DNA of 42,967 nt from a virus: positions 1-42,967 of the IMG/VR virus record IMGVR_UViG_3300005468_000010; one strand, given 5' to 3'. Shown in pieces: positions 4,221-42,042 of this stretch; the first letter of the stretch is position 1, and each line of letters starts with the position of its first letter. The position numbers and the translations under genes are program-made. The notes under the pieces are model-generated. The model was not told the DNA's origin. It worked only from the letters and a program-made list of their open reading frames with translations, and ran no database searches.

Positions 4221-4529
4221 TTATTGACCCCTTCCAAAACAGGTTTTGATCTGTTTCTGTCTTCGTGGTGACAAAAACCCGTAAATCGTCATTAAGAACC
4301 CACGTGCTCTGGGGCCATAGAGATTCCAATAATAATAACCTCTATTGTCCCTCAAAACTTTAGAGCCTCCAAACAAACTTCTTAACCTAAGAAGGAGCCA
4401 GGGATCTTTTTGAGTGATCCTGGTTTGCTCTGTTCGAGAGGCTCGGCCACAACTACCTTCTCCCTCATAAATACCAGCAGCCCAAGAAATGTCAAGGGTT
4501 GTGGGGCGAACCTCGGCAGGGGTACTCAA
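4221..4529 (-). CDS. Free-standing LAGLIDADG-type homing endonuclease (HEG 1)
   Basis: A 102-residue basic protein. Residues 15-26 (SWAAGIYEGEGS) are a LAGLIDADG-type helix with the acidic residue in the EGEG context. They are followed by ITQKDPWLLLRLRSLFGGSKV, then an aromatic strand pair (GYYYWNLYGP) and LMTIYGFLSPRRQKQI, the order usual in small single-motif endonucleases of this family. Such proteins act as dimers on long DNA targets and spread their own genes. The start appears to be TTG at 4529, one base after the upstream stop. It lies between two small virion-cluster genes and shows no intron-like flanks. Two relatives are at 33445-33816 and 41641-42042. Confidence 0.75.
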   Translation of the reverse strand: MSTPAEVRPTTLDISWAAGIYEGEGSCGRASRTEQTRITQKDPWLLLRLRSLFGGSKVLRDNRGYYYWNLYGPRARGFLMTIYGFLSPRRQKQIKTCFGRGQ

Positions 4530-6240: not shown

Positions 6241-6899
6241 TTCTGTCCCAAAGACCGTGATACGGAGGTGCCCGTTGAATCAGTAACCGTTACGACAGCG
6301 CCGAGCATTGACACAGCACAAGGATTACAGCCGGCAGCGATCATAGGAGCAGTTCTTAGGTCTGAGATAGTGCCCTCAAACGGGTGTGTGGCTAGATAGC
6401 TTGCAGTGTCGGTAGCGATTGCTGTGAGAGCGCCACAGCCTCCAGACGTACAGTGGGTGTTTGGTGCGTCAACAAACGTGCGTGATCCAAAGCCTGTCAG
6501 CGGAGATCCACCACAGACCGTATCTCCCGTAGTCGTAACAACATCATTACAACCAAACTTAGTATTGCCCCCCTCAATATCTTTACAGTCTGGATTGGCA
6601 ACACAAACCGGATCGGCGGGTGGAGTACAAGAACATAACGCAGGACAGTTAGCTGTGGCAGTTCCGATACCAACCTTAATCGCCACAGACTGATAAGCGT
6701 CTCCTGCTACACCGCTGCCTGGGTTTGGTGGAGCCGTGAGAGTAGCTGTTTGTCCTGGAGGTGTTTGAGTGATTATGCCCTTGGTTGTGCTCCACACGAA
6801 GGGAGGCCGACCCCCGCAGACAATCACACGTAAGATTTTTGTAGTGCTACAGGGAAACTTTCCGTCGTTATTTCCGTCTGTGATTATCGTTAGTGCCAT
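6237..6899 (-). CDS. Cysteine-rich beta-type virion-cluster protein
   Basis: A 220-residue protein with 13 cysteines, which is very high for an intracellular phage product. They cluster as NCPALCSCTPPADPVCVANPDC near residue 85-105 and as HCTSGGCGA and GCNPCAVS later. Segments such as ILRVIVCGGRPPFVWSTTKG and TATLTAPPNPGSG are typical of Ig-like beta domains. There is no signal peptide. Possible roles are a disulfide-hardened external decoration or fibre protein, or a metal-binding structural protein. It is in the late operon upstream of the tail genes. Confidence 0.7.
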   Translation of the reverse strand: MALTIITDGNNDGKFPCSTTKILRVIVCGGRPPFVWSTTKGIITQTPPGQTATLTAPPNPGSGVAGDAYQSVAIKVGIGTATANCPALCSCTPPADPVCVANPDCKDIEGGNTKFGCNDVVTTTGDTVCGGSPLTGFGSRTFVDAPNTHCTSGGCGALTAIATDTASYLATHPFEGTISDLRTAPMIAAGCNPCAVSMLGAVVTVTDSTGTSVSRSLGQK

Positions 6900-31936: not shown

Positions 31937-33445
31937 TTAGGACTCGGTTTCTTGTGCTCTCAGCACGGCGCCGCGATACTTGATGGTCGATGCGCTTGTC
32001 CACTCAAGTCTCATACCTATAAACCTACCACGGGCATCAAGGCCCACGATTGTCTTAGGTGGAGTAAGTGTTAGGTCGATTGAGGCTCCAGTACTGAGCA
32101 CGCCATTGATGTTGTCCAAGATGTTCGAGGTGACAGCCTTCATTGTTACTGTGCCAAACCCACCACCGCGTTCAAGGAACGGTTCAATGGGCAGAACACG
32201 GTCGATACCCTGCTGCTGGTTAGGCAGGATCATACCAGTCTGAATGAAGCCGCTGACCGCCGTACCGTCATCAGTAAGCCCGGAGATCGTGTAGAGCTTC
32301 TGAGTGTCAGACGTGAAAGCCACGGACGTAGTAAAGTTATTATCGTAGATCTCACAGCCAGCCGTGACCGATTTGCCCATGCGACCGGGAAAAGCAGCGT
32401 AAGGCCGACCCATCTGTTTGTTCTCAAGCCTTAAGATCACCATGCCATCAGTGATCGACTGGCCGGCTCGCTGATAGTAGAACCTCACCTCTTCAAGCTG
32501 TGGTATCCAGATCCCATGAACACGAAAAGGCGCATTCAGATCTATCTCGTCCTTAACCGTCTTCCACGCACCGTCTACGACCCACTTGTGCATGAAGCCG
32601 TTGAAGTATCCGATACGTCCGTTTCGAGTCATGTAGTAATGACGACCACCTGCGTTGACTACTGCATTAGAGCCAGCAGGACCTTCCACGTAATCGAACA
32701 AAGACCATCTGAAACTAGAGCCGCCCGGCAAGCCTGTGACTTCTCCAAGCCAGATAGAATCTTTCTTATAGGCTACTCCGCCGACTGTTCCCATAGTCTT
32801 GATAGCTATCAACGGCGCCGCCGTCTCACCAAAGACTCTCTGATTCAATGAGGGCCAACCTGAGACCGTACCATCATCTAGTGGCTCGCTCCACTGAATA
32901 GCGTGTGAGCCAACGATGCCGACCAACCTATCCGCAATGACCGTCAGATCACGCATGATGGGAGGTTGATTTCCTGTGCCAGAAACAACCGTACTGACTG
33001 TTGCATCTCCAACTTTCCAGGTCTTAAGTGGATCAACACCGTTGACAAAATAGATTCGATTCTTTAGGGGACTGCCAAAAGCAAACTGCTCAACGCTCAC
33101 TGGGTTATCAGCAGTTCCAGTCAAGCCTCCGTCGAGATCCGCCCACACGCCAGATGATACGGTGTAAACCCAAGCCTTGGCTGTAGTCACTACAAAGATA
33201 TAATCTGCCGTCACGTTATCCCAGAAGTTCAAGGACCCCATTGGACGAGCACCAAGAACTTGAGAACTAAGCTGAGTTAGACCTCGGCGTCCCTGAAGTG
33301 TGCCATCCTCGATATCCGCGTTGGAAGAATCGAAGAGACCATCAGGCGGGATCTTGATATCTTGATAACCACGAAGTACGCCCTTGATCGGCAAGTCCCA
33401 CTGGCCGACTATTGGTTCTTCGCGGTATCTGGCCCCGACAGCGAT
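31937..33445 (-). CDS. Tail nozzle/tubular-like protein with displaced, non-ATG start
   Basis: About 500 residues of repeated strand motifs (ADYIFVVTTAKAWVYTVSSG, NRIYFVNGVDPLKTWKVGD, MRDLTVIADRLVGIVGSHAI, GVAYKKDSIWLGEVTGLPGG), as in beta-propeller-like nozzle proteins of short-tailed phages. MPIKGVLRGYQDIKIPPDGL is the usual near-N-terminal sequence. No ATG exists in frame: the first standard start is TTG at 33394, but coding continues upstream to ATC at 33445 in a TAATC overlap with the homing endonuclease stop. ATC GCT GTC GGG GCC AGA copies the codons left at 33833-33816. A GAGG ribosome site stands 9 bases before the ATC. See findings. Confidence 0.75.
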   Translation of the reverse strand: MAVGARYREEPIVGQWDLPIKGVLRGYQDIKIPPDGLFDSSNADIEDGTLQGRRGLTQLSSQVLGARPMGSLNFWDNVTADYIFVVTTAKAWVYTVSSGVWADLDGGLTGTADNPVSVEQFAFGSPLKNRIYFVNGVDPLKTWKVGDATVSTVVSGTGNQPPIMRDLTVIADRLVGIVGSHAIQWSEPLDDGTVSGWPSLNQRVFGETAAPLIAIKTMGTVGGVAYKKDSIWLGEVTGLPGGSSFRWSLFDYVEGPAGSNAVVNAGGRHYYMTRNGRIGYFNGFMHKWVVDGAWKTVKDEIDLNAPFRVHGIWIPQLEEVRFYYQRAGQSITDGMVILRLENKQMGRPYAAFPGRMGKSVTAGCEIYDNNFTTSVAFTSDTQKLYTISGLTDDGTAVSGFIQTGMILPNQQQGIDRVLPIEPFLERGGGFGTVTMKAVTSNILDNINGVLSTGASIDLTLTPPKTIVGLDARGRFIGMRLEWTSASTIKYRGAVLRAQETES

Positions 33446-33816
33446 TAGAGTGAACCTCGATCCTGTCTAAAGTACCGCCGATTATAGCCCTCTTGTCTTA
33501 AAGGACTGTGTGCCGTTCTTCGAGACACATACATCGGTAGCCGATTGATTTGATCTAGTCTTCTTGGACTCATATAAGGTTTGATACAAGTTATTATCAA
33601 ATGAGCAAGCCATCCATTAGCTTCCCATCTCCAACTATCTCTATCGGGATAAATTTCTCCGCCCCACCATTCTTGAAGCCTTTCAAGAGGCCAACGCTGC
33701 TTTTGACTTGCTGAGATAGAAGCCTGTCCTCTGCCCTTTTTCTTTGTTCCAAAGCCGCCTTCACCCTCCAAAAAGGATGCGGTGTAGACAACCTTTTCTT
33801 TCACACCTAATATCAT
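33445..33816 (-). CDS. Free-standing LAGLIDADG-type homing endonuclease (HEG 2) inside the nozzle gene
   Basis: A 123-residue basic protein. VVYTASFLEGEGGFGTKKKG (9-28) is the LAGLIDADG-type helix. It is followed by ASISASQKQRWPLERLQEWW, GGEIYPDRDSWRWEANG, and LIITCIKPYMSPRRLDQI, which parallels GFLSPRRQKQI in HEG 1. The C-terminal ~30 residues are Arg-rich. The ATG lies within the sixth codon of the interrupted nozzle gene. The whole interval is coding, which leaves no room for a group I intron core, so this is a free-standing gene, not an intron or intein. Confidence 0.8.
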   Translation of the reverse strand: MILGVKEKVVYTASFLEGEGGFGTKKKGRGQASISASQKQRWPLERLQEWWGGEIYPDRDSWRWEANGWLAHLIITCIKPYMSPRRLDQINRLPMYVSRRTAHSPLRQEGYNRRYFRQDRGSL

Positions 33817-33833
33817 CTTGCGCCTACTGCCAT
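33813..33833 (-). pseudogene. Stranded first six codons of the nozzle gene
   Basis: ATG GCA GTA GGC GCA AGA TGA encodes MAVGAR and then stops inside HEG 2. The same peptide (after the initiator) is encoded in recoded form immediately after HEG 2. The ATG lies 3 bases after the stop of the upstream YvrJ-like gene, the normal position for the nozzle start before the insertion. Confidence 0.7.
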
Positions 33834-33836
33834 TGT

Positions 33837-34007
33837 TTAGTCCCTGATGATCGGCTGTTTGAGAGCAATCTCCAGTAACAGAATGATCTTATCCAGCCGC
33901 ACGGATAAGATTGACATAAACTTTGCGTCTCTCCACATGAACCAAACACAGACAGCGATAGGAAACCCAAGCTGACTGATTAATTTTATAGCTGTGTCAA
34001 GATCCAT
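33837..34007 (-). CDS. YvrJ-like small membrane protein
   Basis: AGGGA precedes the ATG at 34007. The 56-residue product MDLDTAIKLISQLGFPIAVC then VWFMWRDAKFMSILSV has one membrane helix and an amphipathic tail, and resembles the YvrJ family (LIxxxGFPIxVxxxLL). In phages such proteins are holin-like or of unknown function. It lies between an ejection-type protein gene and the nozzle gene. Confidence 0.6.
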   Translation of the reverse strand: MDLDTAIKLISQLGFPIAVCVWFMWRDAKFMSILSVRLDKIILLLEIALKQPIIRD

Positions 34008-40233: not shown

Positions 40234-41526
40234 TTAGCTCGGCAATTGAGCAGAGAAGGCGCTGGCGCTTTCGATACGTGCGAAGAAGTTGTTATCAATG
40301 ATAAAACTCTTCCACATGATCTTGGTGCCGACCTTCCGACCTTGTGCGAGAGGATTGGAGAAAGACGCGCCCGGAGGAGTAATATAGGACTCAAGGGACA
40401 TGCCGTTAAGTTCTACGCGACCGAACGAATCCAAACCAAACACCCAAGCAACGAAGACTTCCCGCTGGTTAGCAGGAGCCGAAGGAGGAGTTGCAAGTGT
40501 TGCCGCTGCGTAAATCGCCGCGCTAATAGCGTTAACAGAGCTAGCCGCTACACGTGAATAGAGCTTCTTAAAGTTCAAACCAGAGGTATCCGACAGATAA
40601 ATGTCGTACACATAGTTCGTACTCGTAGGAGCAGTCACGTTGAAAAGACCATCAGCATCAGACACCGTATGGGTCTGACTGATTTTCCTCTCAAAGTTCG
40701 TGGTGATATCACGAGCCACTACCACAAGCAGACTACCATCGAGAGCACCACCAGCACCAACTTCACTGGTCTGAGCTTTCTCTAAGGTAGCAGCCGTAGT
40801 ATCAGGCGCGGGAACACCCTTGAAGATAGGCAGAAAGTTTCCTCTCGCCCATCGAACTCCCATCCAGATCCCGATCTCACCAAATTGCAAAGCACGGACA
40901 TTGGCAAAGTTACTCGCGTCTTTGAAGGTTTGATCCGCAGACAGTACATCACCCTCCTGTTGAGGAGACATGACACCGCCAAACAAACCACCTTCTTGCT
41001 CACCGGCTCCAAGGTTTCTCAGAGCAACGGTAGACTTCAACACGGTAGCCGTATCCATCTTATCAGATGCGCCAATCGTGGGCCGCGAGGTTGCGCTGCC
41101 GGGAAAGTAGACCTGAGTACCAGACAAAAGCACGTTAGCCATTTCACGTTCCAGAACCTCAGCGATAGCCAAGCTGGTACGATCAATAGCGATTTGCAAT
41201 GCTGGATGGACAGTCGTGATCAGAGCCACGTCTGTCAACAGGACCACGATACCCCACTGCTCAACAGTCACGTCTACGTTTTCAGTCGCTAAAGCCACTG
41301 CATCGGGAGGCGTTCCTTCAGTGAGGGTCGAGAACGGCAAGTTAAGCCTCTTATATCGAACCACACGGAGGGTCTTACTCATCCGCTGCGGGAGCGTATG
41401 CAACTTTGCGTACTTACCAATTCGCAGATTACGCTCGGAAAGACGAAACATCTCACGAGCGATATATACGTTCGGTGCGTCGTTGGACAAGGTACTAAAG
41501 GTTGTTGCTACATCAGCCGTAAAAAT
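40234..41526 (-). CDS. Major capsid protein, irregular start
   Basis: About 420-430 residues. Recognised capsid signature: NVYIAREMFRLSERNLR, LHTLPQRMSKTLRVVRYKRL, TEGTPPDAVALATENVDVTV, EQWGIVVLLTDVALIT, FGEIGIWMGVRWARGNFLPI and the C-terminal NPLAQGRKVGTKIMWKSFII, the order seen in HK97-fold capsids of environmental podoviruses. An inserted domain (residues ~255-340) is a small beta unit. The first ordinary start is TTG at 41490, but FTADVATTFSTLSNDAP upstream of it is conserved-looking coding sequence. That points to ATT at 41526, or ATG at 41533 one base out of frame across a T5 run. Frame-wise it follows a TGA at 41542. Confidence 0.9.
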   Translation of the reverse strand: MFTADVATTFSTLSNDAPNVYIAREMFRLSERNLRIGKYAKLHTLPQRMSKTLRVVRYKRLNLPFSTLTEGTPPDAVALATENVDVTVEQWGIVVLLTDVALITTVHPALQIAIDRTSLAIAEVLEREMANVLLSGTQVYFPGSATSRPTIGASDKMDTATVLKSTVALRNLGAGEQEGGLFGGVMSPQQEGDVLSADQTFKDASNFANVRALQFGEIGIWMGVRWARGNFLPIFKGVPAPDTTAATLEKAQTSEVGAGGALDGSLLVVVARDITTNFERKISQTHTVSDADGLFNVTAPTSTNYVYDIYLSDTSGLNFKKLYSRVAASSVNAISAAIYAAATLATPPSAPANQREVFVAWVFGLDSFGRVELNGMSLESYITPPGASFSNPLAQGRKVGTKIMWKSFIIDNNFFARIESASAFSAQLPS

Positions 41527-41640: not shown

Positions 41641-42042
41641 TCATTCAACAACACTGTTAGACGGTTTGTTCGACTGACAAGATCGAGGCCGTCCAATGAT
41701 TCGTTTATCTCTTTTCCAGGCGAGTATAGCTATCTTGGCTTGCTCGCGCTTTTGCGTACTTAACCAATTCCACAACAAGGCTATCACAGCTTGAGCCTTA
41801 TGTCCACTGGTCTTGTAGACATAGTGAGGTTTACGTCTTGGTTGCTTACTTTTAATGGGACCATAAACCTTGCCTAACTCGCCAGTAGCTTTGTCGAATC
41901 TATCTAGTTGCTCTCGCTCAACTTGAGAGATCCCCACTCTTACTGAAGGAGCCCCTTTCTTCTGCTTGTTAATCCAAGTGCTTCCTTCGCCGTTGAAGAA
42001 GCCTGCTGAGCAAGCCAACTCTTCACGGTTGATTTCAATCAA
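41641..42042 (-). CDS. Free-standing LAGLIDADG-type homing endonuclease (HEG 3)
   Basis: A 133-residue basic protein. The helix ELACSAGFFNGEGSTWINKQ (8-27) carries the LAGLIDADG-type acidic motif. It is followed by RVGISQVEREQLDRFDKATG, GKVYGPIKSKQPRRKPHYVY and a helix ending LSTQKREQAKIAI, the same plan as HEGs 1 and 2. The start is TTG at 42042, which overlaps the scaffold stop (TTGA). It separates the scaffold and capsid genes, a pair that is usually adjacent. Confidence 0.8.
   Translation of the reverse strand: MIEINREELACSAGFFNGEGSTWINKQKKGAPSVRVGISQVEREQLDRFDKATGELGKVYGPIKSKQPRRKPHYVYKTSGHKAQAVIALLWNWLSTQKREQAKIAILAWKRDKRIIGRPRSCQSNKPSNSVVE

Follow-up and report, generated by a model that had tools for sequence, protein, structure and literature searches.

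The 42,967-nt virus record IMGVR_UViG_3300005468_000010 from IMG/VR, analyzed over its whole length and hereafter called the window, is a contig of a podovirus-like phage whose portal and adaptor are of the SU10 type, and its nozzle (tail-tube) gene is interrupted near the 5′ end by a small homing endonuclease gene (HEG), here named HEG1. We propose, with a probability of roughly three in four, that HEG1 is a gene-end-replacing homing element and thereby a natural counterpart of engineered ‘home-and-rescue’ drives. HEG1 lies between two copies of the same nozzle gene end, one of which restores the gene, and these copies differ in their nucleotides while encoding the same residues. It takes over the original start of the nozzle gene, and the tail of the inserted segment is a recoded version of the gene's first six codons, with which the nozzle frame is whole again.

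All features of this junction are located on the minus strand. The upstream copy, ATGGCAGTAGGCGCAAGA (33833-33816), reads ATG GCA GTA GGC GCA AGA and is the start of the nozzle gene, broken off after codon 6 by a TGA (33815-33813); what remains is a mini-open reading frame (ORF) consisting of MAVGAR and the stop (33813-33833). Its TGA overlaps the ATG of HEG1, an ORF of 123 amino acids (33816-33445), in an ATGA motif. HEG1 ends with TAA (33447-33445), and the nozzle frame resumes in the overlapping ATC (33445-33443; TAATC), which is followed by GCT GTC GGG GCC AGA TAC CGC, the protein reading IAVGARYREEP. Counted from this ATC the nozzle gene (31937-33445; phrog_3287, E=6e-9) is otherwise intact, and its rebuilt 5′ end, ATC GCT GTC GGG GCC AGA, occupies 33428-33445. 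The two 18-mers are identical at 13 of 18 bases, and the five mismatches all affect third codon positions, with codons 1 to 5 carrying one each if ATG/ATC is included. A first-pass annotation of the window had described both copies and the TAATC junction, and its bases and coordinates proved correct when the sequence was read again, as did its remark that TAATG junctions with one shared base are used elsewhere in this genome (e.g., at 6899 and 7530). It had further claimed that six lost codons are rebuilt in recoded form. This holds for the restored AVGAR and for the third-base changes in the first five codons, but the residue match extends over five codons only (AVGAR) and the AGA codon is the same in both copies. 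In all six frames of the 43-kb window AVGAR occurs at these two sites only, and shuffled versions of this peptide are present 0.1 times on average. When upstream and downstream peptides were screened blindly against each other, the match scored only 23 and was not outstanding; hence, the case rests on reading frame, position and orthologues.

Which of the two copies is the original one was addressed using relatives that lack the endonuclease gene. A search with the major capsid protein yielded 43 related loci, two of which (L009 and L046) encode nozzle proteins ~41% identical to that of the window over the full length. Neither locus contains an endonuclease gene, and in both a small membrane ORF is followed, after few bases, by the nozzle ATG, with the protein starting MAKGARRREEQ in L009 and MARGARRREEE in L046. 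The upstream copy in the window is found at the same place, directly behind a holin-like small membrane gene (33837-34007) and 7 nt downstream of a ribosome-binding site (AGGGA, 33841-33845) whose context resembles AAGGATTAACCAATGG in L046. Because position, kind of preceding gene and ribosome-binding site agree, the copy before HEG1 is the original nozzle start, and the copy after HEG1 the rebuilt one. The first-pass annotation had suggested this comparison, with MAVGARYREEP as the start expected in endonuclease-free relatives, and the related start MA[K/R]GARRREE was indeed present right after the same upstream gene. Searches of IMG/VR and isolate phages with the nozzle and HEG proteins returned no matches, and a degenerate DNA search for MAxGARxREE recovered, in a nozzle context, only the two known orthologues.

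HEG1 is a LAGLIDADG-family gene with a predicted I-CreI-like fold, which supports the initial annotation of a homing endonuclease-type gene. It matches phrog_5046 (E=8.5e-9). An AlphaFold2 model based on an alignment of 32 homologues has a mean predicted local distance difference test score (pLDDT) of 86 and the order of secondary structure elements of LAGLIDADG enzymes (alpha-beta-beta-alpha-beta-beta-alpha); a prediction from the single sequence had reached a pLDDT of 44 and was not usable. The best PDB matches of the model in Foldseek were I-CreI, I-CvuI, I-MsoI, and other LAGLIDADG enzymes (E 4e-5, probability 1.00, TM-score ~0.6). HEG1 possesses a single motif, TASFLEGEGG, which includes the catalytic-acid motif FLEGEGG and in which A13, G18, E19, and G20 are invariant across the 32 aligned relatives. 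Weak Pfam LAGLIDADG matches were obtained for one sibling of HEG1 in the window and for two genes in relatives. The name of phrog_5046, ‘HNH endonuclease’, appears to be wrong, and an HNH nuclease fold of HEG1 was rejected on the basis of the predicted LAGLIDADG fold. A group I intron was also rejected: no Rfam intron match was found in the junction region (E up to 5) or in the window (E up to 1), no catalytic core was found, and there is no space for one outside the HEG1 ORF. An intein was rejected as well, since the upstream part stops at TGA and HEG1 is in a different frame than the nozzle. A search of the joined flanks for a pseudo-palindromic, I-CreI-like site revealed nothing convincing at the junction (5/11 at the insertion point).

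A rebuilt and synonymously changed gene end beside an endonuclease gene, as postulated in the first-pass annotation, recurs at other endonuclease genes. We screened 279 phage loci with a LAGLIDADG-type motif from IMG/VR by seeking the start of the gene behind the endonuclease in front of the endonuclease (1,674 mispaired controls, top score 34) and by the mirror image of this screen for 3′ ends (highest control score 42). Seven further gene-end-rebuilding insertions were detected in other phage contigs, and these ends are recoded as well. Three of them affect 5′ ends and are evident when the sequences are inspected, the other four affect 3′ ends. The 5′ cases are a prohead protease gene (L203; endonuclease start MPVKSCQRNGKGGW, protease restart MPVKKCQRNGVAGW; score 62), locus L100 with the pair MPANEIKLHIPAC / MPSKSEIAIHIPAC (EIKLHIPAC / EIAIHIPAC; score 43), and the gene of a DNA-polymerase exonuclease subunit (L200), where the endonuclease starts with (TTG)KILLLDI and the invaded gene restarts with (ACG)RILLLDIETSPN, encoding RILLLDI. 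In L200 all six identical residues are encoded by different codons. A score of 28 gives this locus no significance by itself, but the gene family is represented in 1,509 phage records, and three orthologues that were inspected have TTG or ATG at the position of the ACG. The 3′ cases concern a capsid protein gene (L151, score 96), thyX (L349, score 47), and two unknown genes (L163 and L160) with scores inside the control range. The latter two were retained since each of the two copies terminates in a stop codon and the endonuclease is fused to the original end. In L163 and L160 the former end of the invaded gene now forms the C-terminus of the endonuclease, and the original gene end is fused to the HEG in L100, L200, and L203 too. 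The rebuilt copies in L203 and L100 begin with ATG. No introns were detected in the recurrent loci, and no relatives of the L100 host gene were found in isolate phages or genome contigs. Other top-scoring candidates were rejected as low-complexity or unanchored (L155, L108, L142, and L085) or as a chance motif (L430).

As a gene-end-replacing element, HEG1 would encode an enzyme that cleaves the 5′ end of this conserved gene in phages with an empty nozzle allele, and repair of the break from the HEG-bearing phage would copy the endonuclease gene together with the rebuilt end. The recoded end would retain the protein sequence and abolish the cut site; the first-pass annotation, too, had regarded the original start as the putative cut site and the copy as an immune version. 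Recoding would also remove the direct repeat that permits clean excision, and the homology by which repair could end without copying the endonuclease. Translation of the nozzle would then start at the AUC overlapping the endonuclease stop, with a normal Shine-Dalgarno sequence and aided by translational coupling. The replaced end is the 5′ end at the nozzle gene, and the 3′ end in L151, L349, L163, and L160.

The strongest competing explanation, although in our view an unlikely one, is a local duplication of the gene start at HEG insertion followed by synonymous drift, with no moving cargo and no role in immunity. In all eight cases together, 46 of 65 identical residues are encoded by different codons, compared to 39.6 expected for random codon choice. 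The copies are saturated with synonymous change and are not fresh duplicates. As this divergence is at, and not clearly above, saturation, descent from a diverged homologue explains the codon changes as well as selection for immunity does, and drift after a duplication would be compatible with it too, as it would be with the 15 identical bases still common to the two L100 copies. However, recurrence at both gene ends and the fusion of original ends to the HEG in five loci fit repeated invasion, and in the WHO elements of yeasts it is the corresponding duplicated end that is copied by homing (PMC7282813).

The remaining alternatives concern the start of the rebuilt gene. The ATC is preceded, at a distance of nine bases, by a GAGG ribosome-binding site within the 3′ end of HEG1 (33455-33458), with a pairing energy of −6.6 kcal/mol that is close to the genome median of −6.9. 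The first-pass annotation had regarded the rebuilt end as a low-expression version, for which a ribosome-binding site of about median strength offers no support. In L200 the rebuilt start is an ACG located six bases behind a perfect AGGAGG (−11.8). Hence, two independent near-cognate codons occur at the exact start position and have good ribosome-binding sites. Values measured for AUC and ACG initiation in E. coli are low to variable and widely scattered (PMC6925171). Insertion and rebuilt end could be real and the ATC an ATG altered by a sequencing error or by strain variation, the true junction being an ordinary TAATG. This is rather improbable to us, even if a single base change in this metagenome contig would create the junction type used at 6899 and 7530 and the rebuilt copies in L203 and L100 do have ATG. 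The ACG of L200 is independently non-canonical, the major capsid gene behind HEG2, a further endonuclease gene of this contig, has ACG at a position occupied by ATG, GTG or TTG in each of 31 inspected relatives, and separate errors striking exactly such start codons are unlikely.

Even less probable is a nozzle start at TTG 33394, with the recoded stretch as untranslated debris and 17 N-terminal residues lost. The nozzle frame contains no ATG, GTG or TTG between an upstream TAG and this codon, which is the first canonical in-frame start, but its Shine-Dalgarno pairing is almost absent (−1.7 kcal/mol), the MA.GAR.REE conserved in both HEG-free relatives would disappear, and divergence restricted to third bases is not expected of debris. 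Least of all do we credit an intron-like or bypassing mechanism that splices out or skips the 390-nt segment separating the AGA codons and joins MAVGAR to YREEP: both copies stop at the same codon, so that exact removal would restore the frame, and bypassing in phage T4 gene 60 is a precedent, but known bypassing spans ~50 nt, the permissive Rfam search found no intron, 369 coding bases of HEG1 occupy the gap and leave no room for a group I core, and a silent second copy would not have kept AVGAR (no residue changes and four third-base changes besides ATG/ATC), nor ILLLDI in L200 with its conserved residues identical. Frameshifting from HEG1 into the nozzle frame was rejected, as no slippery sequence was seen at the junction.

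Several observations weigh against a gene-end-replacing homing element, besides the codon counts given above. At two positions that hardly vary in its family, HEG1 has a different residue (W11 to Y and G14 to S), and it may thus be losing activity. The closest HEG-free nozzles are 41% identical, and in the window the copies match over just five residues. Every example is a metagenome contig: 98 bacterial or archaeal motif hits yielded no rebuilt gene end, and neither did six LAGLIDADG loci of isolate phages (five were judged from their translations, and the sixth is an annotated group I intron). AUC, as Hecht et al. 2017 reportedly observed, initiates poorly in the majority of E. coli measurements, and such a start would be odd for an essential tail protein. 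Comparison of TAATCATGGCT in L009 with TAATCGCT in the window allows the speculation that the ATC may be what the deletion of an ATG left behind. Only tentatively, and with less confidence than in the homing element itself, do we suggest that the near-cognate AUC (nozzle) and ACG (L200) starts work through strong ribosome-binding sites and coupling, and that home-and-rescue elements are a recurrent class in phages and can replace the 5′ or the 3′ end of essential genes, the 5′ versions re-creating a start where the endonuclease gene ends.

Known systems share parts of this organization. Each homing of the WHO elements in Torulaspora and Lachancea yeasts replaces the 3′ end of FBA1 by a sequence-diverged, cleavage-resistant gene end, and as in the window a HEG is found beside a partial copy of a conserved target gene with no protein or RNA splicing (PMC7282813). 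WHO elements are eukaryotic and nuclear, and their endonuclease is large, intein-derived and equipped with a zinc finger (PMC7282813), whereas HEG1 encodes a 123-amino-acid phage enzyme and affects a 5′ end, for which a new translation start has to be supplied. Fungal mitochondrial mORFs (in atp6 of Allomyces macrogynus and in atp6, cox2, nad3, and atp9 of Glomus) are likewise endonuclease genes, mostly of the LAGLIDADG type, near a gene end that is duplicated with mainly synonymous change, and the hybrid gene is expressed; unlike HEG1, they are mitochondrial, replace C-termini (3′ ends) in the described cases, and the replaced ends are larger than six codons (PMC3630166). Free-standing phage HEGs (T4 seg/mob and Aeh1 mobE) resemble HEG1 in being promoter-less and situated in operons with overlapping start and stop codons, and they home by cutting neighboring genes; in the consulted passages of a T4 review no rebuilt end of the invaded gene was found described (PMC2988022). 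Synthetic HomeR drives also combine an essential-gene target with a carried rescue that restores function, but are CRISPR-based, whereas HEG1 is a natural protein endonuclease (PMC7968924). A literature search, with most subscription journals outside its coverage, found no phage example of gene-end rebuilding. Aeh1 mobE is said to leave nrdA as two pieces (Friedrich et al. 2007). As far as this search reached, a WHO- or mORF-like mode that operates at a 5′ end, in a phage, and with a new translation start appears to be new.

If this interpretation is correct, the nozzle locus shows how a selfish gene with neither intron nor intein can settle in an essential phage gene, namely by bringing a replacement for the part that it destroys. 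The replacement would be recoded against cutting and looping out, a rule that gene-drive engineers reached separately. As such elements occur at either gene end and have invaded genes of a capsid protein, a protease, a polymerase exonuclease, and a thymidylate synthase, HEGs may have a general way of rewriting the ends of conserved phage genes. With natural AUC and ACG codons at the expected starts of important genes, near-cognate initiation in bacteria could also be tested directly.

The structural operon of the window holds three endonuclease genes of the same family. HEG2 (41641-42042, minus strand; 21% identity to HEG1) is located between a scaffold-like gene and the major capsid gene, and HEG3 (4221-4529, minus strand; 29% identity to HEG1) immediately follows the stop codon of a structural gene. 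Both start two bases or fewer from the stop codon of the preceding ORF. Rebuilt ends of neighboring genes were searched for at HEG2 and HEG3 and not found, and the ACG of the capsid gene is thus not explained by gene-end rebuilding. This gene (40234-41520, minus strand) begins with ACG GCT GAT GTA GCA, the ACG being at 41518-41520 with GGTG seven bases upstream; the next canonical start, TTG 41490, has no ribosome-binding site. In eight related loci (L006, L004, L009, L019, L008, L010, L013, and L021), an intergenic stretch of 100-450 nt separates the scaffold-like and capsid genes. It is apparently rich in self-complementary segments, possibly represents a structured leader RNA, and is partly displaced by HEG2 in the window.
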